Source: Corynebacterium epidermidicanis (GTDB lineage Bacteria > Actinomycetota > Actinomycetes > Mycobacteriales > Mycobacteriaceae). From it: DNA of 64,000 nt. A program made the position numbers and the translations under genes. Position 1 is the first letter of the stretch. Each line of letters starts with the position of its first letter. Shown in pieces: positions 443 to 14,428 of the stretch. The notes under the pieces were generated by a model, which worked only from the letters and a program-made list of their open reading frames with translations, made no database searches and was not told the DNA's origin. Location: contig NZ_CP011541.1 of NCBI RefSeq assembly GCF_001021025.1, positions 620,001-684,000 of the forward strand, written 5' to 3'.

Positions 443-697
443 ATGAAGACGATCAGTTACACCGAGTCGCGTGCGAATTATGCGCGGGTACTGGATGAAG
501 TTGTCAATGATCGCGAACCTGTCACCATTACGCGGGCGGGCCACGAATCTGTCGTGATGATGTCCCTAGATGATTACTCGTCATTGCAGGAAACCGCTTA
601 CCTTATGCGTTCTCCGGCAAATGCCCGACGGCTTTTCGACGCGCTGGAGCGTGTGAAAGCTGGGGATGTAACAGAGCACGAGCTCATTGAGGACTAA
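443..697 (+). CDS. yefM: Antitoxin of the YefM/Phd family
   Basis: An 84-residue protein beginning MKTISYTESRANYARVLDEV, the usual start of YefM: the N-terminal DNA-binding fold, then the 'PVTITRAGHESVVMMSLDDY' strand-helix. The C-terminal acidic tail would neutralise the toxin. The ATG at 443 is preferred because AGGAGGT lies 7 bases upstream; an in-frame GTG at 434 has no such site. The toxin gene starts 5 bases after its stop, so the two are co-transcribed. YefM binds YoeB and, as a complex, represses its own promoter; the candidate operator is at 412-429. Confidence 0.93.
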   Translation: MKTISYTESRANYARVLDEVVNDREPVTITRAGHESVVMMSLDDYSSLQETAYLMRSPANARRLFDALERVKAGDVTEHELIED

Positions 698-702
698 GGT
701 TC

Positions 703-957
703 ATGCTCCTCACTTGGGATGAGAATGTCTGGGAAGATTATCTGTGGTGGCAAGCGCACGACCGGAAAGTCTTGAAGCGGATCAATACTCTGATCAAGGA
801 CATTGCCAGGAATGGCAACGAGGGAATCGGTAAGCCCGAGCCACTGAAACATGAATTTGCCGGATTCTGGTCTCGACGAATCACTGAAGAGCATCGCCTC
901 GTCTACCGAGCGAGCGAAAACGAAATCACTGTGCTGGCTTGTCGTTACCATTACTAG
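703..957 (+). CDS. yoeB: mRNA interferase toxin, YoeB/Txe family
   Basis: 84 residues, the normal YoeB length, with the RelE-like fold. It begins MLLTWDENVWEDYLWWQ and ends in the family pattern 'RRITEEHRLVYRASENEITVLACRYHY'. The conserved Glu of the HEFAGFWSRR region, the Arg pair and the terminal HYY-like residues that form the ribonuclease site are present, so the toxin looks intact. YoeB cleaves mRNA in the ribosomal A site. It is translationally close to the antitoxin (5-base gap). Its last 32 bases overlap the 3' end of the broken gene on the other strand, which suggests the pair arrived next to, or into, that gene. Confidence 0.93.
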   Translation: MLLTWDENVWEDYLWWQAHDRKVLKRINTLIKDIARNGNEGIGKPEPLKHEFAGFWSRRITEEHRLVYRASENEITVLACRYHY

Positions 958-1540
958 TTTTAGTCAGACGGGCTCGAGGCCGCCACGCGAAAGCAATCGC
1001 AGGGCAGATGAGTACGGCCATTCCGATGGGTTGAATGGTGTTGGGGCCTTCCTCCTGGAAGACGTATCCAATGAGCGGGAACGCGATGGCAAACCAGAGC
1101 GCGCACAATACTGCGAATGCCAGCAAAACCCATCGCCAAGAAGATCGCTCATCAACAGGTTCCTGGGGGACCAGCAATGCGCCCAAGCGGCGAAGAGCTG
1201 CAGAAACCGCTGCAACAACTCCTCCGTACGGTGCGACGAGTCCAAGGACCGCAGTCACGCTCAGAATTGGTTCGCCGCGCAGCGGGATTGAATACTTGTA
1301 GATGACTGCTATCGATGCGACGGCTAATAGCGCATCAACCCAAAAGGAGCGGATGCTGACTCGCTGCAGCAAGGGGAAGAAGAACACCGAGGAAATCGAT
1401 CCCAGTAAAGCGAGGCCGGCCTACGGGCTCAGATCGAGAGGGAGGAAGTGGGCAACTACTGCCACCAACAGAAGCGCAATCTCGAGCAGCGGGTATCGCC
1501 ACGTCGGGATGCTCGCTAGTGGGGCAGCAGATTTCCGCAC
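926..1540 (-). pseudogene. Membrane sensor-like protein, interrupted by an in-frame TAG
   Basis: Starting at GTG 1540 (AACGAGG upstream), the frame runs open for 39 codons, meets TAG at 1421-1423, then continues in the same frame to a stop at 926. Sense continues across the TAG: the sequence reads as unbroken hydrophobic helices (EIALLLVAVVAHFLPL before; AGLALLGSISSVFFFPLL after), about 204 codons in all with roughly five membrane segments. This resembles the membrane input part of a histidine kinase, but no kinase domain follows. A single base change therefore probably inactivated it, and the 3' end abuts the toxin-antitoxin genes. A short 5' product or readthrough cannot be excluded. It begins 17 bases after hypD on the same strand. 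Confidence 0.6.
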
Positions 1541-1557
1541 TCTCTACCTCGTTGTTG

Positions 1558-2691
1558 CTAGTTCTGCGCCAGCTGCGCCGTCTCCTGTCGATCCAATCGA
1601 CCGAAGTTGTAGTACGCCGCGCAGGCGCCTTCAGGGGAGACCATGCAGGTGCCAATCGGGGTTTGCGGAGTGCAGGCGGTGCCGAATACCTTGCACTGCC
1701 ATGGCTTGATGCGTCCGGTGAGGACGGAGCCGCATTCGCAGGCGGCGGGGTCTTCGACGCGTCGGCCCGGTACGTTGAACTTCTTTTCGGCATCCCACTT
1801 CGCATATTCAGGGGCGATGCCCATGCCGGAGTTGTCGAGCCAACCGAGGCCGCGCCATTCGAAGGTGTCGCGCAGGGTGAATACGCGGTCGAGCAGCGCC
1901 TTAGCAGCCGGGTTGCCCTCTGCACGAACGACGCGGGCGTACTGGTTGTCCACGCGCTTTGGCTCGTCGTGTGCGAACTGGGAAACGAGCATGGCTACGG
2001 CCTGCAGTACGTCGAGAGGCTCGAAGCCTGCTACGGCGCAGGGCATGCCAAACTCCTCGACGAGGAAATCGAAGGCGTGGGTGCCGATGATGGTGGATAC
2101 GTGACCTGGGCCGATGAAGCCGTCCACCTTCGTCTCGCCCCCGTTGACGATCGCGCGCAGCGGTGGCTCGATGGTGACGTGGTTGGAGAAGATGGAGAAA
2201 TTATCGATGTCCTTCTTGCACGCAGTCTCCAAGGTCACGGCAGTGGAAGGCGTGGTGGTTTCGAATCCGACGGCGAAGAACACCACTTCTTTAGAGGGGT
2301 TGTCCTCGGCGAGCTTCAACGCATCGAGCGGGGAGTAGACGAAGCGGACATCGCAGCCTTTGGCACGGGCTTGCATCAAGGATTCGTTTGAACCCGGCAC
2401 GCGCATCATGTCACCAAAGGTGGTGAGGATGACGTTCGGCTGGTTGGCGAGCCAAATGGCGTCGTCAATGCGTCCCATGGGGATCACGCACACGGGGCAA
2501 CCCGGGCCGTGGACGAGCTCCACGTTTTCCGGCAGCAGGTTCTCCAGCCCGTAGCGGTAGATCGTGTGGGTGTGGCCACCGCAGACTTCCATCAGACGGA
2601 TTGGCTCGTCAAGCAAGGCAGCGTCATGTTCGATGCGTTTCAACAGGGCTTTTGCGGCATCTGGGTCGCGGAATTCGTCGACGAATTTCAA
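1558..2691 (-). CDS. hypD: Hydrogenase maturation factor HypD
   Basis: 377 residues, matching the usual ~370. The diagnostic motifs are present: 'MEVCGGHTHTIYRYGLENLLPENVELVHGPGCPVC' (split here by its Cys and His residues: CGGHTH and GPGCPVC), the 'GFETTTPSTA' block, and the C-terminal [4Fe-4S] cysteines in the region of 'CECGSVLTG', 'CKVFGTACTP' and 'PEGACAAYYNFGR'. HypD forms with HypC the scaffold on which the Fe(CN)2CO group is built, with cyanide delivered by HypE. The start overlaps the hypC stop by 4 bases (ATGA type), so hypC and hypD are translationally coupled. Confidence 0.97.
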   Translation of the reverse strand: MKFVDEFRDPDAAKALLKRIEHDAALLDEPIRLMEVCGGHTHTIYRYGLENLLPENVELVHGPGCPVCVIPMGRIDDAIWLANQPNVILTTFGDMMRVPGSNESLMQARAKGCDVRFVYSPLDALKLAEDNPSKEVVFFAVGFETTTPSTAVTLETACKKDIDNFSIFSNHVTIEPPLRAIVNGGETKVDGFIGPGHVSTIIGTHAFDFLVEEFGMPCAVAGFEPLDVLQAVAMLVSQFAHDEPKRVDNQYARVVRAEGNPAAKALLDRVFTLRDTFEWRGLGWLDNSGMGIAPEYAKWDAEKKFNVPGRRVEDPAACECGSVLTGRIKPWQCKVFGTACTPQTPIGTCMVSPEGACAAYYNFGRLDRQETAQLAQN

Positions 2692-2951
2692 ATCGAACTC
2701 TCCTTAAACGCATCCAACTCGTCCTCGAAAGTGTTCGCGCCGAGCTGTTTGATCTGTTGCAGCGTCAGCTGTGCTTCGTCTTCGTCGATCTTGCTGAGCG
2801 CGAAACCTACGTGGACGAGCACCCACTCGCCGATCGCAAGAGGTTCGGTCATGAGGTCGGTGGAGATCATGCGGGTCACGCCACTGATCGAGACTTTCGC
2901 GCGCGCGGGCTCGGGAATTTCCACGATTTGCGCTGGCACACCAAGGCACAT
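2688..2951 (-). CDS. hypC: Hydrogenase assembly chaperone HypC
   Basis: 87 residues of the HypC/HupF family. It begins MCLGVPAQI, so the essential Cys2 that binds the iron precursor is in place, and continues with the beta-barrel segment 'GEWVLVHVGFALSKIDEDEAQ'. AGGAGGAC lies directly before the ATG at 2951. It is first in a hypC-hypD operon and is divergent from hypE, with a 72-base shared upstream region. A second, diverged HypC is encoded at 14177-14428; having two suggests one serves HypD and the other a different large-subunit-like client. Confidence 0.96.
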   Translation of the reverse strand: MCLGVPAQIVEIPEPARAKVSISGVTRMISTDLMTEPLAIGEWVLVHVGFALSKIDEDEAQLTLQQIKQLGANTFEDELDAFKESSI

Positions 2952-3023
2952 AAGTCCTCCTTTGAATATGGTTCAAGCTTAGCAGCGCTACCATGGGATC
3001 AGCCTAGGAGCGAAGGAGTAGTC

Positions 3024-4127
3024 GTGGACCCGAAGAACCGGCTTAACGAGGACGAATCCCGCGTCAACCTCAACATTTCCAAGGTGCGCTCGCGCCCATT
3101 CCGACTGCTGGAAGATCGCGTAACTCTCGCCCACGGCGCAGGCGGAAAGTCCTCAGCAGCGCTCGTTGAACAGGTCTTTTTCGACGCTTACGGCAACGAC
3201 CTGCTTGCCCAAGGCGGAGATAGTTCCGTGGTCACTGCTGCCTCGCTTATCGACGCCCATGGCTCCTCCATCGCCATGTCCACCGACTCTTATGTGGTCA
3301 ACCCCATCGAATTCCCGGGTGGCAACATCGGCGAATTGGCGATCAACGGCACAGTCAATGACCTGTCCGTGGCCGGTGCTGTGCCAAAGCTCATATCGGT
3401 GGCGTTCATCCTGGAGGAGGGACTGGAGTTCTCCGAGCTGCGTCGCATCGTGTTGTCGATGAAGGAGGCCGCCGATAAGGCGGGTGTTGTTATTGCCACC
3501 GGTGACACGAAGGTTGTGCCGAAGGGGGCGGGCGACAAAGTGTACATCACCACTGCTGGAATCGGCGTGATTCCGCCGTCTCGTATCCTGGGCTTTGATC
3601 AGATTCAGGTGGGGGATCGCATTATTGTTTCCGGCCCTATAGCCGACCATGGCATGGCCGTGATGATGGCGCGTGGTGACCTCGCTATTGAAGCGCCGAT
3701 CGAGTCCGATACCCAGGCGGTTAACGGCCTGGTCGAGGCCCTGATTGAGGCCGCCGACGTGCGCTGGATGCGCGATGCCACCCGCGGGGGCCTCGCGACC
3801 TCCATGAACGAGATGGCTCGGGCTACGGGACTGGCTGCGGTGTTGGAGGACTCCAAGATTCCAGTTCGGGACATGACCCGCGGTGCCTGTGACATGCTGG
3901 GCATCGATCCGCTGTACGTGGCGAATGAAGGAACTTTTGCAGCTGTGGTATCTGAAGAGACTGCGGACGCTGCTGTTGCTGCGCTGCGGGAGGCCGGCGC
4001 AGAGGGCGCGTGCATTATTGGTCGGGTGGAGGCCCAACCGGCGGCTTCGGTCGTGTTGGTCACCGGGTTTGGCGGGACGCGAATGGTGGACATGCTGGTT
4101 GGGGACCCGCTGCCTCGGATTTGTTAA
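3024..4127 (+). CDS. hypE: Hydrogenase maturation protein HypE
   Basis: 367 residues of the PurM/ThiL-like fold. HypE dehydrates a thiocarbamate on its C-terminal cysteine to make the cyanide ligand. The C-terminal tail is 'LPRIC', the required Pro-Arg-Ile-Cys ending, and the ATP-binding glycine region 'LAHGAGGKSS' is near residues 34-43. I place the start at GTG 3024, 5 bases after CGAAGGAG; the reading frame stays open far upstream, but only because hypC and hypD lie on the other strand. It is divergent from hypC-hypD and followed by the His-rich gene. Confidence 0.95.
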   Translation: MDPKNRLNEDESRVNLNISKVRSRPFRLLEDRVTLAHGAGGKSSAALVEQVFFDAYGNDLLAQGGDSSVVTAASLIDAHGSSIAMSTDSYVVNPIEFPGGNIGELAINGTVNDLSVAGAVPKLISVAFILEEGLEFSELRRIVLSMKEAADKAGVVIATGDTKVVPKGAGDKVYITTAGIGVIPPSRILGFDQIQVGDRIIVSGPIADHGMAVMMARGDLAIEAPIESDTQAVNGLVEALIEAADVRWMRDATRGGLATSMNEMARATGLAAVLEDSKIPVRDMTRGACDMLGIDPLYVANEGTFAAVVSEETADAAVAALREAGAEGACIIGRVEAQPAASVVLVTGFGGTRMVDMLVGDPLPRIC

Positions 4128-8160: not shown

Positions 8161-9324
8161 ATGAACATCGGATCATTGTGGCAGGGTGATACCCTGGCGG
8201 AGAATCTCGAACAACAAGGAATCGCCCGCCGTGATTTCATGAAACTTTGTGGCGGACTCGCCGCTATCTTCGCGGTCGGTGCACCAACCGCCAACCCGCC
8301 AGAAGTTCTGGCAGCTGAGATTGCCCGGAAATTGGGCGGAGTGAAGAAGCCTAATGTGGCTTGGCTACAGCTACAAGAATGCACCGGCTGCATGGAATCC
8401 GTGCTCCGCTCCGGCGGGACCACTGTCGAAGATGCCGTGCTGGACTTGTTGTCGATCAACTACAACGAACTCGTCATGGCGGCCTCTGGGCATGCGGCCG
8501 AGAAGGCCCTCGATGACCTCAATAAGGAACCCCACATCCTCGTGGTCAACGGCTCAGTGCCCATGAAAGAAGACGGTATCTATTGCACCATCGGTGGGAA
8601 ATCCGCCGAGGTCATCCTGCGGGAAGCCGCCGAGAATGCTGTCGCCGTCTTGGCCGTAGGAGCCTGCGCCGTCTATGGATCCGTCCAAGCCGCAAAGCCG
8701 AACCCCACGGGCGCGGTGGGTGTTGACGAAATCATCACGGATAAGCCCGTCATCAACGTCTCCGGATGTCCACCGATCGGCGAGGTCATCACCGCAACCC
8801 TTGCGTACGTGCTCACCCACGGCAAAACCCCGGAAGTCGACGCCGAAGGTCGCCCGCTATTCGCCTACGACCAGCGCATTCACGATTCCTGCCCGCGTCG
8901 CGCGCATTTCGACGCTGGGCAGTTCGTTCGGCGTTTCGACGACGACGGCGCCCGAAACGGCTGGTGCCTGTATGAGGTGGGTTGCAAGGGGCCTTCCACC
9001 TTCAGTCCCTGCCCGATCGTGCAGTGGAACCTCAAGTCCGGCTGGCCAATCGGTGCTGGTCACCCATGCATCGGGTGCACCGAAAAGGACTTCTTCGACA
9101 AATTCACCCCGTTTTATTCCGAACTACCCGATGTCAAGGGATTCGGTATCGAAGAACCAGTGGCAAAGGTGGGGCTCGGTCTCATCGGCGCAGCGGCCGT
9201 CGGCACCGCAATTCACGGTGGTTTGACTTTGTTTAAGACCATTCCCGTCCGGGACTCCCAAAGCAATGACGAAGTATTGGCTGCGTTCGGCGATGAGCCT
9301 GTCGCAGGAAAGAAGGACAACTAA
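8161..9324 (+). CDS. hyaA: [NiFe]-hydrogenase small subunit, Tat-exported
   Basis: 387 residues of the membrane-bound uptake (group 1) type. The N-terminus carries a Tat signal, 'RRDFMKLCGG', near residues 24-33. Iron-sulfur ligands are in the standard order: CTGC, GAC and SGCPP for the proximal [4Fe-4S]; HDSC and the two cysteines around CLYEVGC for the distal; FSPC and HPCIGC for the medial [3Fe-4S]. The proximal motif has Gly, not an additional Cys, so the six-cysteine oxygen-tolerant cluster is not expected. A C-terminal membrane helix (GLGLIGAAAVGTAIHGGL) anchors the enzyme outside the membrane. The stop overlaps the next start (TAATG). Confidence 0.96.
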   Translation: MNIGSLWQGDTLAENLEQQGIARRDFMKLCGGLAAIFAVGAPTANPPEVLAAEIARKLGGVKKPNVAWLQLQECTGCMESVLRSGGTTVEDAVLDLLSINYNELVMAASGHAAEKALDDLNKEPHILVVNGSVPMKEDGIYCTIGGKSAEVILREAAENAVAVLAVGACAVYGSVQAAKPNPTGAVGVDEIITDKPVINVSGCPPIGEVITATLAYVLTHGKTPEVDAEGRPLFAYDQRIHDSCPRRAHFDAGQFVRRFDDDGARNGWCLYEVGCKGPSTFSPCPIVQWNLKSGWPIGAGHPCIGCTEKDFFDKFTPFYSELPDVKGFGIEEPVAKVGLGLIGAAAVGTAIHGGLTLFKTIPVRDSQSNDEVLAAFGDEPVAGKKDN

Positions 9325-11075
9325 TGGCTACCGAACGTGTTGTCATCGACCCACTCACCCGCATCGAAGGGCATCTGCGGATTGAACTCGAGCGCGAGGG
9401 CGACAAGATTACCAAGGCGTGGAGTGAAACGACCCAATTCCGCGGCATCGAAACCATCGTGAAGGGGCGCGATCCGCGCGATGTCTGGGCATTCGTCGGC
9501 AGAATCTGTGGTGTATGCACCGGTGTGCACTCGGTGGCCTCGGTTACGGCCGTCGAAAATGCCATTGGCGCCCATGTGCCCAAGCAGGGCCAGCTCATTA
9601 GGCAGTTGGTTCTGGCATCGCATGGAATTCATGACCACGTGGTGCATTTTTACCATCTGCACGCTTTGGACTGGGTCAATGTGGTGTCAGCTGCTGAAGC
9701 AGATCCGGCGAAGGCTGTCGAGTTTGCGAAGTCGATCGGTTCGACGTGGAAGCTGAACTCGGAGGCGCAGTTCGCCAAGGTTAAGAAGACCTTGCAGGAC
9801 GTCCTCGCTTCCGGGCAACTGTCTATCTTCACTGGTGGCTACTGGGATCACCCTGACTACCGACTCCCGCCAGAAGCGAATTTGATGGCAGTTTCGCACT
9901 ACCTCGATGCGCTGGCGTTCCAGCGCTCCATCATCCGCATCTCCACCGTTTTCGGTGGCAAGAACCCGCACCCGAACTTCCTGGTGGGCGGTATGGCATG
10001 TTCCATCGACCCGAACAAGTCCGAAACCGTCAACCAAGTGGTGCTGGATCAGGTGGGGGATTGGACGCGCGAAATCCACGAGTTCGTCAACGAATGCTAC
10101 TACCCGGACGTGCGTGCGTTGATGAGCGTCTACAAAGACTATTTCGATATCGGCGCTTCCTCGCCCAACATGATGGCGGTGGGCATGCAGGGCACCACCT
10201 ACGGAGGCTCCCTCAAAGGCCGCCCGGTATCCACGCCGAATGCGGACGTCAAGCCCGGCGTGCTTCTCGACGGCGACTTCCGAACCGTACATCCGATCGA
10301 CGAAAACAAGATCAAAGAGTTCATCTCCTCCGCCTGGTATCAGTATGAAGACGGCGACGCCGCTGGTCTGCACCCGGCCGAGGGGGAAACGGAAGTCAAC
10401 TACACCGGCCCGAAGCCACCATATAAGTGGCTTGCTGACCAGGATAAATACACCTGGTCCAAGGCGCCTCGCTATGACGGCCGACCCATGCAGATGGGCC
10501 CACACGCCCGAGTGCTCTTAGCGTACGCGCAGGGCGAACCAACAACGGTGCGGATCCTGGATGAAGCAATGCTCAAAATCGGCTTCCCTCTGGAGAAGAT
10601 GAACTCCACCGCTGGGCGGACCCTCGGGCGCGCCATCGAAGCCGTCACCAACGCGGAAGCGATGCTCAACCGGGTGCTTCCCGAATTCATCGAAGGCATC
10701 GTCGCAGGCGACTATGACGTGTTCGACGGCACCAAGTGGGAACCCAGCTCGTGGCCGAAGGACGAAGTTTCTGGCTATGCCTTCGTCGAGGTGGCGCGTG
10801 GCTGCCTGTCTCACTGGGTGTCTATCAAGGACGAAAAAGTCAGTCGCTACCAGGCGGTTGTGCCTACCACGTGGCTGGCCGGTGGCCGGGACCCGCAAGG
10901 AAACCTGGGGCCCTATGAGCATTCGCTGTCCGGGGATGGCAAGCATCCACTGGTAGACCCGGAGCAGCCACTCGAGCCATTGCGTACCATCCACTCCTTT
11001 GACCCATGCATGTCCTGCGCGGTGCATGTGCTTGACCCGGACGGGAAACCACTGTTTCAGGTGATGACACAATGA
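9324..11075 (+). CDS. hyaB: [NiFe]-hydrogenase large subunit
   Basis: 583 residues. It carries the nickel-iron site. The N-terminal motif is 'RICGVCTGVHS' and the C-terminal motif 'DPCMSCAVH', giving the four cysteine ligands. After the final His come 15 residues (from VLDPDGK), the peptide that the maturation protease removes after nickel insertion. The start overlaps the small-subunit stop by one base and its stop overlaps the cytochrome start by 4 bases, so the structural genes are tightly coupled. It has no export signal and would travel with the small subunit through Tat. Confidence 0.97.
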   Translation: MATERVVIDPLTRIEGHLRIELEREGDKITKAWSETTQFRGIETIVKGRDPRDVWAFVGRICGVCTGVHSVASVTAVENAIGAHVPKQGQLIRQLVLASHGIHDHVVHFYHLHALDWVNVVSAAEADPAKAVEFAKSIGSTWKLNSEAQFAKVKKTLQDVLASGQLSIFTGGYWDHPDYRLPPEANLMAVSHYLDALAFQRSIIRISTVFGGKNPHPNFLVGGMACSIDPNKSETVNQVVLDQVGDWTREIHEFVNECYYPDVRALMSVYKDYFDIGASSPNMMAVGMQGTTYGGSLKGRPVSTPNADVKPGVLLDGDFRTVHPIDENKIKEFISSAWYQYEDGDAAGLHPAEGETEVNYTGPKPPYKWLADQDKYTWSKAPRYDGRPMQMGPHARVLLAYAQGEPTTVRILDEAMLKIGFPLEKMNSTAGRTLGRAIEAVTNAEAMLNRVLPEFIEGIVAGDYDVFDGTKWEPSSWPKDEVSGYAFVEVARGCLSHWVSIKDEKVSRYQAVVPTTWLAGGRDPQGNLGPYEHSLSGDGKHPLVDPEQPLEPLRTIHSFDPCMSCAVHVLDPDGKPLFQVMTQ

Positions 11076-12250
11076 CGTCGACAATCGCCCCGGCCGACAT
11101 TAGGGTCGCACAGGTCTATTCAGTGGGGAAATACACCCCGGATGAAGTACTGGCGTTTGCTGGCGCAGTGCCGAAGATGGCAACAGACCCCGTCGATAAG
11201 GCCCTGCGGAAGCATTCCGCCTACGAGGTGGATCAGTTCAACCCGGCGACTCCAGAGCGGAAGTACTCGCTCGCCGAGCTGCCACAAGGCCACGTCAAAC
11301 AATTGGTGATGCGTGGCGATGCCAACGCCGTGCTAGCTGACGCGGGCCTGCCGAAGGCCGACAAGCGGAAGTTTACGGACGCGTACGAAGCAGCCCGCAT
11401 CCTTGGCCATCGCATTATGGCTGTTGCCGTGGCGGACGTGGACCACATTGGGCAGAAGTCGGGATACTTTATGGCCGGTTTCGTGGCGCTCGGTATCGAT
11501 CGTCCCGGGGCGCACCATGGTCCCGGAGCTCCCGGAAATGAGTGGGTGCGTGTAGAGCTGTGGACGCGCTCGCTACGCTTCCAGCACTGGGCAAACGTCG
11601 CCCTCATCATCTTGATGAGCCTGACGGGCTACTACATCATGGACCCATTCTTCGGTGGACAACCAGGCGTGCCCGGCGACACCGGATACCTCATGGGTTA
11701 CATCCGGTTTGCGCACTTCCTGGCCGGTTTCGCGTGGATCGCGATGGGCGTGTGGCGGCTCAGCCTCTGGCTATTTTCTAGCCAGCGACAGCTGCGCTGG
11801 CGGGCACTATGGCCGTTGGATTCGCAACGCGACATACGTGGCCTGTGGGACACCGTCTTGTACTACCTGTTCCTCAAGAAGGATCACGCACCATATCTCG
11901 CGCACAACCCATTGCAGCAGTTCGCGTACACAGCGATCTATGCCCTGTGCATCATCCAGCTGCTCACGGGCCTGGCGCTGTTCGGACTGTATGACCAAAG
12001 CTCCTGGATCTGGGTCGTGCTGAGCTACCCGGTGCACTGGATTGGCGTGCCATATACCCGATTGATCCACGCGGCACTGATGTTCATCTTGTGGGCGTTT
12101 GTAGTGATCCACGTCTATCTGGCCGTGCGTGCCGACACTCAGGAAACCCACGGTGGCGTCTCCGCCATGATCAACGGCGGGGTCTGGGTCAAACGCGACT
12201 CACAGCCTCTCGACGCACACCGCATCGGCACCCGGGGACTGCGACTGTGA
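11072..12250 (+). CDS. hyaC: Hydrogenase b-type cytochrome with an N-terminal P-type-ATPase-like domain
   Basis: 392 residues, compared with ~210-240 for normal HyaC. Residues ~158-392 are the cytochrome: four membrane helices with heme/quinone-site histidines (RFQHWANVAL, RFAHFLAGF, IHAALMF, VVIHVYLAV), passing electrons from the small subunit to menaquinone. Residues ~11-145 look like the nucleotide-binding domain of P-type ATPases: 'DEVLAFAGAVPKMATDPVDKAL', split by its sense into helix and DPVD motif; 'FNPATPERK'; 'VMRGDANAVL' in place of KGAPE; and 'GYFMAGFVALGIDRP' like the segment before the hinge. The DKTGT phosphorylation site is absent. The fold assignment is my inference by pattern; the cytochrome call is secure. 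Confidence 0.88.
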   Translation: MTSTIAPADIRVAQVYSVGKYTPDEVLAFAGAVPKMATDPVDKALRKHSAYEVDQFNPATPERKYSLAELPQGHVKQLVMRGDANAVLADAGLPKADKRKFTDAYEAARILGHRIMAVAVADVDHIGQKSGYFMAGFVALGIDRPGAHHGPGAPGNEWVRVELWTRSLRFQHWANVALIILMSLTGYYIMDPFFGGQPGVPGDTGYLMGYIRFAHFLAGFAWIAMGVWRLSLWLFSSQRQLRWRALWPLDSQRDIRGLWDTVLYYLFLKKDHAPYLAHNPLQQFAYTAIYALCIIQLLTGLALFGLYDQSSWIWVVLSYPVHWIGVPYTRLIHAALMFILWAFVVIHVYLAVRADTQETHGGVSAMINGGVWVKRDSQPLDAHRIGTRGLRL

Positions 12251-12717
12251 AAGTTACCGTCCTAGGCGTAGGTAACCCAATCATGGGCGACGATGCCGTC
12301 GGCTTGGAACTACTAGCCCGGGTACACAAAGAGTTCGGGGCCGCCGAAGGCATTAAATTTGTCGACGGTGGCACCGCCGGACTCGAAAACCTCACCGTGG
12401 TTCAGGACGCCGAAGGCCTGTTGCTTCTCGACGCCCTAGCGGGTCCCGGAGCACCCGGTTCCGTGGTGACACTCGAAGGAGACCAAATCCCGAGGCTGTT
12501 GCAATCGAAACTATCGCCCCACCAAGTGGGGTTGTTGGATTTGCTTTCCGCGGCACGCTTACTCGGCACGGAACCTGCCCGAGTCGGGGTTGTGGGCGTT
12601 GTGGTCGCAGACACGCAGCTTCACGTTGGTATGACAGAGGTAGTCACTAATGCGCTGCCCGCGGCCACCGCTGCAGCTGTTACGCTTATTCAGTCTTGGG
12701 TGTCCACGTCCACATAA
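12247..12717 (+). CDS. hyaD: Hydrogenase maturation protease (HyaD/HupD family)
   Basis: 156 residues. It begins with the family motif 'VLGVGNPIMGDDAVG', whose Asp contacts nickel, followed by 'LLLLDALAGPG' and 'LSPHQVGLLDLL', which supply the second acid and the His. It cuts the C-terminal peptide from the large subunit once nickel is in place. The start is GTG at 12247, overlapping the cytochrome stop by 4 bases (GTGA). The frame is open further upstream, but inside the cytochrome gene. Its last 28 bases overlap the end of hypA2 on the other strand. Confidence 0.95.
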   Translation: MKVTVLGVGNPIMGDDAVGLELLARVHKEFGAAEGIKFVDGGTAGLENLTVVQDAEGLLLLDALAGPGAPGSVVTLEGDQIPRLLQSKLSPHQVGLLDLLSAARLLGTEPARVGVVGVVVADTQLHVGMTEVVTNALPAATAAAVTLIQSWVSTST

Positions 12718-13034
12718 GCAATCTCAAATTCTTTACCATGGCGCAAGTCCGCGGTCGGGGTGTCGCAGACCGGGCAGGTCAAGGCGAAGAACTCATCGAT
12801 GGGCTGCTCCTGTTCGCAAGACGGGCACCACACCGCTGCGGGGACTTCGGTGATCACGAGGTTGGCCTCCTGGCAGGCAGTCTCTGCCCGAGCGATCGGC
12901 CAGGAAGCCTCCAAAGCTTCCGCAACCACGCCAGACCGGGCGCCTACCCGCAACCCCACCTCTTTGATCTTTCTGCCGGCGGCCGCTGCTACTACGGTGG
13001 AAACTACAGAGGTCAACATCCCTAACTCATGCAC
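12690..13034 (-). CDS. hypA: Nickel metallochaperone HypA (copy 2)
   Basis: 114 residues. The N-terminus is MHELGML with a GTG start at 13034, retaining His2 and Glu3. Unlike copy 1 it has the canonical zinc site: CPSC and CPVC pairs 14 residues apart. It is the only gene on the minus strand between hypF and hypC2, tail-to-tail with hyaD (28-base overlap) and divergent from the large-subunit-like gene (30 bases between start codons). It probably serves either the same hydrogenase under different conditions or the large-subunit-like protein beside it; the sequence does not decide. Confidence 0.92.
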   Translation of the reverse strand: MHELGMLTSVVSTVVAAAAGRKIKEVGLRVGARSGVVAEALEASWPIARAETACQEANLVITEVPAAVWCPSCEQEQPIDEFFALTCPVCDTPTADLRHGKEFEIAYVDVDTQD

Positions 13035-13064
13035 AAACTCGATTATGGACCCGGAGCACCAACG

Positions 13065-14174
13065 ATGGCGAAAATCACCCTCAACCTAGACCAATTGGTG
13101 GAACCTTTCGAAGCCAGGGTGGTGGTGCGCAAGAACGCTTCCGGGGAGATCATCGACGCCCACTTTGACCTTTCAGGGCTGCCCAGGCTCGATCCAGTTC
13201 TCGTGGGCAAACCGGTGGCTGAGGTGCCGGACATCGTCAAACGGCTCTGTGGCCTTTGCCCGGTGGCCCATCACCTGGCGGGCATACGAGCGCTTGACTC
13301 CTACTATGGCATCGCCGAGATTCCCGAAACAGCCCAATTAGTGCGGGCCCTGCTGTTACATGGCGCGATCATCGAGCAAGTCGCTTGGAAGTTTGTGGAT
13401 ATCGATAGGGATACCGCCATCGCTACGCGTCGATACGGCAAGGCTGTATTAGCGATGGCCGGCTGCCCAGGGCACTTCCCCGATGTCGCCATCCCCGGCG
13501 GGGTTCGCAATGCGGCTGAGATGGCAGAGCTCGACGATGTCGCTAAGCGGGTGGCAGCATTGCCGGTACAGACCCACACCGAGGACGACTTCGCCGGGCT
13601 AGACGTGGCCGTCTGCACTAGAGACGGAAACCTCAACCCATTGGGGGACTTCATTCGTGCCGGGGAAAAGATCGTCCCTGCACAGGAGTTTTATGACCAC
13701 GTTATCGAGACCCGCCCCGGTGATCCCGCACCGCGCCCGACTTTCGACGGCCAAAAGTTCCGGGTCGGCCCCGTGGCACAGGCCCGCCTGTTGGGTGAAT
13801 CGACCTCGCCGTTGGCCGCGCAAAAGGCGCTTTTGCAGCGCAGCCTCACAGCAGTAGCGGAGATCCTCACCCAACAGGCTGTTCATGGGGGACTATTGCA
13901 TGCTGAGAAGCAATCGCCACGCACCGGTGGGGTAGGCGTGGTGGACGGGCCACGAGGCTTGCTCATCCACCGCTACGACAGCGATGGGGAAGGCAACCTG
14001 GTCAGCTGCAACATCCTCACGCCCACTGCCCAAAATGAGTGGTGGCTTTCAGACATGCTGGCGAGTTCCCTAGCCGCAGAGCGGATTGAAGCTGCCATCC
14101 GTGCCGCCGACCCCTGCTTGCCGATTAGTTCAGCACCAGCAGGAGCAGTCAATGTGAAAGTGGAGGAAGCCTAA
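13065..14174 (+). CDS. Hydrogenase large-subunit-like protein, HupK/HoxV-type scaffold candidate
   Basis: 369 residues from ATG 13065 (GGAG 8 bases upstream; an ATG at 13029 lacks one). It has the N-terminal motif 'RLCGLCPVAHH' of [NiFe] large subunits and a 'DPCLPISSAPAG' tail where an active enzyme would have DPCxxCxxH. With one C-terminal cysteine and no terminal His it cannot form the normal nickel site, and there is no cleavable tail. Known relatives of this kind, HupK and HoxV, act as scaffolds for the Fe(CN)2CO group. Its partner hypC2 follows 2 bases later. Alternative: a degenerate second hydrogenase that has lost its small subunit. Confidence 0.8.
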   Translation: MAKITLNLDQLVEPFEARVVVRKNASGEIIDAHFDLSGLPRLDPVLVGKPVAEVPDIVKRLCGLCPVAHHLAGIRALDSYYGIAEIPETAQLVRALLLHGAIIEQVAWKFVDIDRDTAIATRRYGKAVLAMAGCPGHFPDVAIPGGVRNAAEMAELDDVAKRVAALPVQTHTEDDFAGLDVAVCTRDGNLNPLGDFIRAGEKIVPAQEFYDHVIETRPGDPAPRPTFDGQKFRVGPVAQARLLGESTSPLAAQKALLQRSLTAVAEILTQQAVHGGLLHAEKQSPRTGGVGVVDGPRGLLIHRYDSDGEGNLVSCNILTPTAQNEWWLSDMLASSLAAERIEAAIRAADPCLPISSAPAGAVNVKVEEA

Positions 14175-14176
14175 AA

Positions 14177-14428
14177 ATGTGCATTGGAATTCCCGCGCGG
14201 ATCACCGACATCGTGCCCGGATTTTTGCCCATCGCCACCGTTGATGTGGCGGGACAGATCCGTCAGTGCAGCCTCGCCTACGTTCCCGACGCCACACTGG
14301 GGGACTATGTGCTGATCCAGAACGGGTACGCGATGGATGTGCTCAGCGAAGCAGACGCTCGGCAATCACTCGAAGTCATTGCCGAGCACAACATTATTTC
14401 CGAGGGGCTTTCCAGGCCAGGACAGTAG
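14177..14428 (+). CDS. hypC: Second HypC/HupF-family chaperone
   Basis: 83 residues starting MCIGIPARI, so the catalytic Cys2 is present, with the barrel segment 'LGDYVLIQNGYAMDVLSEADA'. It begins 2 bases after the large-subunit-like gene and is clearly co-transcribed. In systems that have HupK/HoxV, a dedicated HypC-like protein (HupF) often works with it, which fits this pairing. Its last 35 bases overlap the 3' end of a small membrane-protein gene on the other strand. Confidence 0.93.
   Translation: MCIGIPARITDIVPGFLPIATVDVAGQIRQCSLAYVPDATLGDYVLIQNGYAMDVLSEADARQSLEVIAEHNIISEGLSRPGQ

Follow-up and report, generated by a model that had tools for sequence, protein, structure and literature searches.

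The hydrogenase cytochrome gene hyaC of Corynebacterium epidermidicanis encodes a fusion protein in which a b-type cytochrome is preceded by what is almost certainly the nucleotide (N) domain of a P-type ATPase. The gene lies in a 64,000-nucleotide window, positions 620,001 to 684,000 of contig NZ_CP011541.1 (assembly GCF_001021025.1), from a genome of 2.69 Mb assembled as a single contig; among database relatives, the nearest named species is C. hindlerae. By our reading of the sequence, which we hold to be somewhat better than an even bet, the domain would be a cytoplasmic, non-catalytic ATP/ADP-binding module that tunes H2 oxidation to cellular energy charge.

Identity and topology of the HyaC extension

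A first-pass annotation of the window had described HyaC as a protein of 392 residues with about 157 ahead of the cytochrome, listed P-type N-domain motifs in that extension, and noted that DKTGT is missing. These observations hold: the open reading frame (ORF) is uninterrupted, the PF01292 and TIGR02125 matches begin at residue 164, and the start is well fixed because its ATG shares an ATGA with the hyaB stop. The motifs, checked over residues 39-145, follow P-type order (DPVDKAL, 39-45; FNPATPERK, 56-64; RGDAN, 81-85; GHRIMAVA, 112-119; GYFMAGFVALGIDRP, 131-145), and DKTGT is absent from the entire 392-residue sequence.

A single sequence could not decide the identity of the extension. The window's own copy matches nothing in Pfam or NCBIfam, scans of the 392-residue HyaC returned no P-type family from either collection, and a phmmer search of the PDB gave as its best match a weak one to a plant copper-pump N domain (expectation value, E, 0.018); the next five were reverse transcriptases, none better than E 0.87. 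It is the profiles of relatives and the predicted structure that decide. Of 34 Corynebacterium extensions, 18 match the NCBIfam model for proton pumps, TIGR01647 (best E 2.2e-8), as do 25 of 49 in a wider, overlapping set (best E 5.2e-7); the scores lie far under its threshold of 615.5 bits for whole proteins, which is what a lone domain should give. The next commonest pump model, TIGR01525 (P1B), matches 5/34 and 10/49. Pfam scans of the 34 extensions returned no P-type family, and five unrelated families in at most two members each, at E 0.021 or worse. NCBIfam matches to mft_etfB (best E 1.8e-4; 2/34 and 1/49 members) and to a GlmU model (E 1.1e-3; 1/34) were taken as noise. Against all PDB sequences, P-type ATPases made up 15 of 15 matches to the extension profile (best E 0.014) and 14 of 14 to the wider profile; the best E of the latter, 0.0017, partly scores the pump's other domain, and weight is put on the set of matches instead of the number. 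Over 298 genomes of the order the extension profile found 14 places outside HyaC: all 13 that were read are DKTGT pumps, and the 14th lies within the pump ORF of locus L002. The top such match (locus L080, genome G379) and the G380 match fall in the two proteins that exceed the P3A cut-off in a survey covering 121 genomes of the order.

Profile-profile comparison by hhalign aligned the extension with three P3A pumps at 97.3% over 136 columns, and at 96.8% both when restricted to columns of the window sequence and when duplicate rows were removed. The best of 100 column shuffles reached 1.9% and the reversed profile 0.2%; the score was 65.0 against 19.1 for the best shuffle. The shuffles used an 81-row set with duplicates, only the real comparison having been redone on deduplicated rows, and the three pumps were picked by the extension's own hidden Markov model, a selection bias of which the TIGR01647 scans and both structure rankings are independent. 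The alignment runs from the Leu of DKTGTLT to DPPR, indicating that the extension is a whole N domain cut at both hinges. Comparisons with P2-type N domains reached 80.5% and 76.7%, so P3A fits better.

The fold predicted for the extension is confidently that of a P-type N domain, and Pma1 and AHA2 top both structure rankings. The structure prediction and profile search that the first-pass annotation had recommended as checks on its proposed N-domain identity thus both bear it out, the family matching P-type ATPases well above scattered other hits. Among pump classes, the P3A (proton-pump) class is the closest match by sequence and model. HyaC is not a whole P-type ATPase, since by its sequence it carries neither DKTGT nor the P, A and M domains.

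The remainder of HyaC is a hydrogenase b-type cytochrome, with four helices, conserved histidines, and hyaA and hyaB upstream; cytochromes of the HyaC type pass electrons from H2 to menaquinone. TIGR02125 scores 126.1 bits, above its curated cut-off of 121.5. Transmembrane helices are predicted at residues 166-190, 205-235, 280-305 and 326-356, and His172, 215, 278, 333 and 347 are invariant in 52/52 aligned rows. Between the two parts lies a low-confidence linker, where the predicted local distance difference test score falls below 50 at residues 148-157 in one model and 145-154 in another. Mean Lys/Arg counts, with helix limits taken from the predicted structure model, are 7.88 for loop 2 and 3.71 for the C-terminus as against 0.29 for loop 1 and 0.35 for loop 3. 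This positive-inside pattern strongly implies that the N-terminus, and with it the N domain, is in the cytoplasm, the compartment of ATP, as had been proposed from the letters alone.

Residues of the putative nucleotide pocket

The pocket of SERCA, going by the title of one paper, reportedly consists of Thr441, Glu442, Lys515, Arg560 and Leu562. The assignment of HyaC motifs to SERCA positions is presumptive; their assignment to P3A pumps rests on reading of the pumps and on hhalign. Conservation was counted over 66 unique extensions (54 after clustering at 90% identity), and the counts for individual pocket residues are given in Table 1. The first-pass annotation was right that the KGAPE lysine is missing, in that no lysine stands there, but the position is not simply lost: it is arginine in 65/66 extensions, and the equivalents of Glu442, Arg560 and Leu562 (the last, position 116, Leu or Met in 64/66) are conserved. 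Nucleotide binding is therefore more plausible than that annotation implied. Gly82 is invariant, and in an entropy ranking of the 157 columns over the 54 clustered sequences Arg81 and Arg114 come 6th and 7th. Position 65 is aromatic or His in 66/66, and the three P3A pumps read differ there. The residue register between Phe56 and Arg63 is unfixed. SERCA Arg560 matters for nucleotide binding, according to two papers (PMC11977196, PMC3203174), and the KGAPE lysine is, according to a review, conserved within the ATP site outside the P1B and P6 classes (PMC10654040).

Two further loci of the same genome carry altered P-type motifs. A P-type ATPase at locus L003 (G000:C1:759115-762651) has IGAPE at the KGAPE position, so a pump head that retains DKTGT can lack this lysine too. 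At locus L005 (G000:C1:2336405-2339950; ORF 484..3120, minus strand), a P-type-ATPase-like protein of 878 residues has NRVGT in place of DKTGT; the phosphorylated Asp being replaced by Asn, it is likely a pseudo-pump.

Distribution, history and genomic setting

Of 201 Corynebacterium genomes, 42 have a HyaC match, and setting aside two weak ones (G043, a copper-type pump; G036, a partial cytochrome match at E 1.1e-4) leaves 40, 34 with the domain and six without. In these six (loci L036-L041) unrelated N-termini lead into the cytochrome: four are short and either charged or Pro/Ala-rich, and the other two (G096, G166) have a different charged stretch. Extension matches in five of the six genomes occur solely at E 1e-4 to 0.29, in ORFs of 749-1047 residues, and the sixth has none.

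A search of 84,980 species genomes with cytochrome patterns, which favour this clade, yielded 56 loci: 52 with the domain, three without and one cut by a contig start. The three, from C. xerosis, C. halotolerans and one near relative, are all among the six Corynebacterium cases. By record labels the loci belong to Corynebacterium, Cellulomonas, Nocardioides and bins assigned to Propionibacteriaceae, Bifidobacteriaceae, Micrococcales and others; the survey of homologues that the first-pass annotation had called for thus shows this extension to be shared by several families of actinobacteria. Alignments A3 and A4 hold 48 of the 56 loci; outside them are L137, L138 and L146 (no domain), L145 (cut by the contig start and undecidable), L139 (also cut by a contig start), L148 (partly extracted), and L107 and L136, both domain-bearing by tblastn.

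Across the phylum, 65 of 396 genomes match, and by match coordinates the window's own genome alone covers both parts; the others, few of which were read, cover the cytochrome alone or a pump-like part alone. On 78 plasmid records, most of them from Proteobacteria, no relative reaches 80% query coverage, and the 20 matches listed start at residue 156 or later. A protein-database search, with 7999 candidates scored, gave at least 359 matches at E<=1e-30. Lengths among the 120 listed run from 391 to 419 residues, and the organisms named there are Corynebacterium durum, Propionibacteriaceae, Propionibacteriales and Bifidobacteriaceae. No free-standing extension domain was found among 7999 candidates scored, where at least two proteins reached E<=0.01, both with a cytochrome domain. 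Where named, these proteins are called 'Ni/Fe-hydrogenase b-type cytochrome subunit'; neither these names nor Pfam scans of the 34 extensions reveal the N domain.

A tree of 63 rows built from the cytochrome alone needs three changes of domain state, and 0 of 500 shuffles were as low; this fits one gain followed by two losses, both inside Corynebacterium. The tree is a quick one with long outgroup branches (five readable rows of 17), and its starred branches alone force one change. Ratios of nonsynonymous to synonymous substitution (dN/dS) in the domain are 0.02-0.36 over 12 pairs of relatives.

The operon around hyaC (Table 1) has the genes of a [NiFe] hydrogenase, with genes that we take to be hypB, F, E and D lying further upstream. 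HyaA carries RRDFMK, presumably a twin-arginine-translocation-like signal, and ECTGCMES around its first cysteines; we take the latter to be the ordinary small-subunit form and CTCC to be that of oxygen-tolerant hydrogenases, and the enzyme may, from this motif, be of the oxygen-sensitive uptake type. The closest solved large subunit to HyaB by sequence is 3MYR, and the next is that of E. coli Hyd-1. The second large-subunit-like gene encodes what is presumably a HupK-type assembly factor, and tblastn places a homologue close to hydrogenase genes in many relatives' loci.

Table 1. Coordinates, in the window, of hyaC, its parts and the neighbouring genes
Feature	Position	Strand	Remarks
hyaA, [NiFe] hydrogenase small subunit	8161..9324	+	
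hyaB, [NiFe] hydrogenase large subunit	9324..11075	+	
hyaB stop / hyaC start overlap	11072..11075	+	ATGA
hyaC	11072..12250	+	Fused gene, 392 residues: N-terminal P-type ATPase N domain (predicted) and hydrogenase b-type cytochrome
P-type ATPase N domain, P3A-like (predicted)	11096..11500	+	Residues about 9-143
Asp42, SERCA Glu442 position	11195..11197	+	D 61, E 3, G 2 of 66; Asp in the three P3A pumps read
Arg63, candidate SERCA Lys492 position	11258..11260	+	R 61/66; register uncertain by one residue
Arg81, KGAPE lysine position (SERCA Lys515)	11312..11314	+	R 65/66, S 1/66
Arg114, SERCA Arg560 position	11411..11413	+	R 65/66, K 1/66
Linker, N domain to cytochrome	11501..11542	+	Residues 144-157; low confidence
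Four-helix cytochrome b (HyaC/CybH proper)	11543..12250	+	PF01292, residues 164-369; TIGR02125, residues 164-371
Hydrogenase maturation protease, HycI/HyaD family	12247..12717	+	
hypA	12690-13034	minus	
Second [NiFe] large-subunit-like gene	13029-14174		PF00374 match limited to residues 56-115
hypC	14177-14428		

Readings of the fusion and comparison with known systems

In the reading that we consider somewhat more likely than not, a complete P3A-type N domain, its ends lying immediately downstream of DKTGT and at the hinge marked by DPPR, has been fused to the N-terminus of HyaC, a flexible linker tethering it on the cytoplasmic side to the cytochrome. Its old pocket would bind ATP or ADP, with arginine standing in for the KGAPE lysine, and occupancy of the pocket would alter the cytochrome, in the transfer of electrons from haem to menaquinone, or its contact with the hydrogenase, such that H2 oxidation follows the energy charge. 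Family-wide retention of the charged pocket, together with the conservative change from lysine to arginine, argues for a ligand-binding, non-catalytic domain. The phosphorylation domain being absent, pump-type ATP hydrolysis by HyaC is ruled out, and it is a strong inference that the protein cannot hydrolyse ATP as a pump does, in keeping with the annotation's description of the domain as non-catalytic. The arrangement suggests that the energy state of the cell could control hydrogen respiration directly. A fuller version, which we advance tentatively and consider rather less than evenly probable, is that this membrane-bound respiratory [NiFe] hydrogenase carries its own sensor of adenine nucleotides, the N domain having been captured once in the ancestor of the clade and gating H2 oxidation by ATP/ADP. 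If nucleotide is bound, the fusion would form a direct allosteric link through which, in several actinobacterial families, the ATP state acts on H2 electrons as they enter the quinone pool; if the sensor reading is true, cellular energy charge would feed back directly on electron entry to the respiratory chain.

Several observations weigh against nucleotide sensing. HyaC departs from the P-type N domains at the KGAPE lysine, conserved in the ATP site outside P1B and P6 pumps and here replaced by arginine. Phe487 has no secure equivalent: the likeliest column, 56, is aromatic in 39/66 extensions (F 35, Y 4), and when the sequences are aligned without gaps Ala59 falls there. The most conserved columns could reflect the fold as much as a ligand, and the sequence reveals no coupling route from the domain to haem or quinone. 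The domain's dN/dS exceeds that of the cytochrome in 9 of 12 pairs, by up to about fivefold, the domain's dS being above 1 and unreliable in five of the 12. Moreover, six of the 40 Corynebacterium HyaCs do without the domain while the neighbouring operon genes looked for are present, so that it is dispensable there.

The same absences, suggestive of a modular accessory role, together with the lysine-to-arginine change and the insecure Phe487, lend some weight to the main rival, in which an N domain that has ceased to bind nucleotide works in the cytoplasm in docking or assembly, either by holding on to a maturation factor, to a partner enzyme or to the tail of the small subunit, or by stabilising the cytochrome. 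We judge this a minority possibility, as it leaves the sixth and seventh places of Arg81 and Arg114 in the entropy ranking to be accounted for, and none of the eleven other operon genes looked for is lost together with the domain, most genes of these genomes lying outside the comparison. It is improbable, in our estimate, that the pocket has adapted to a different anionic ligand (NAD(H), GTP, guanosine tetraphosphate (ppGpp), a cyclic nucleotide or a flavin), sensed instead of ATP: the near-universal arginine and the aromatic residue or histidine at position 65 resemble a specialised site, but the remaining pocket residues are those of P3A domains and there is no independent sign of any such ligand. 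That the resemblance arose by chance or from faulty gene prediction might have been argued from the failure of the window's extension to match Pfam or NCBIfam and of 34 relatives' extensions to match a P-type Pfam family; in our view the profile searches, the shuffles and the predicted structure refute it, as do the start fixed in the ATGA and conservation with low dN/dS.

To our knowledge, P-type ATPase N domains on their own are known only inside pumps; here, one has evidently left its pump and is maintained by selection within a hydrogenase. By title or opening of the abstract, the full-text literature, which leaves most subscription journals outside its coverage, yielded no description of an N-domain/hydrogenase fusion or of an extended HyaC. 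In the searched text of a P-type ATPase review (PMC10654040), 'fused' and 'fusion' do not occur and 'hydrogenase' appears once, for methanogenesis, and a term search of the available text of PMC8575881 gave no match. The cytochrome itself resembles HyaC of E. coli hydrogenase-1 (PDB 4GD3 chain A), whose residues 16-220 align with residues 166-369 of the present protein (phmmer E 4.4e-20); the E. coli subunit, however, has 235 residues and no N domain. Unlike the P3A proton pumps (Pma1, 9UGB/9UGC/7VH5; AHA2, 5KSD), HyaC has its predicted N domain in isolation, without P, A and M domains or DKTGT, and with arginine at the KGAPE lysine. Isolated N domains of KdpB (1SVJ), MgtA (3GWI) and HMA8 (5LBK) have been solved; these we take to be pieces of complete pumps, produced for structure determination, whereas that of HyaC would have come free of its pump naturally and joined a respiratory subunit. 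The Toxoplasma guanylate cyclase with a P4-ATPase domain likewise joins a P-type-ATPase-like part to another enzyme; there, as far as the available text describes it (PMC6592433), P-type motifs accompany a nucleotide cyclase, whereas in HyaC an N domain alone is carried on an electron-transfer subunit.
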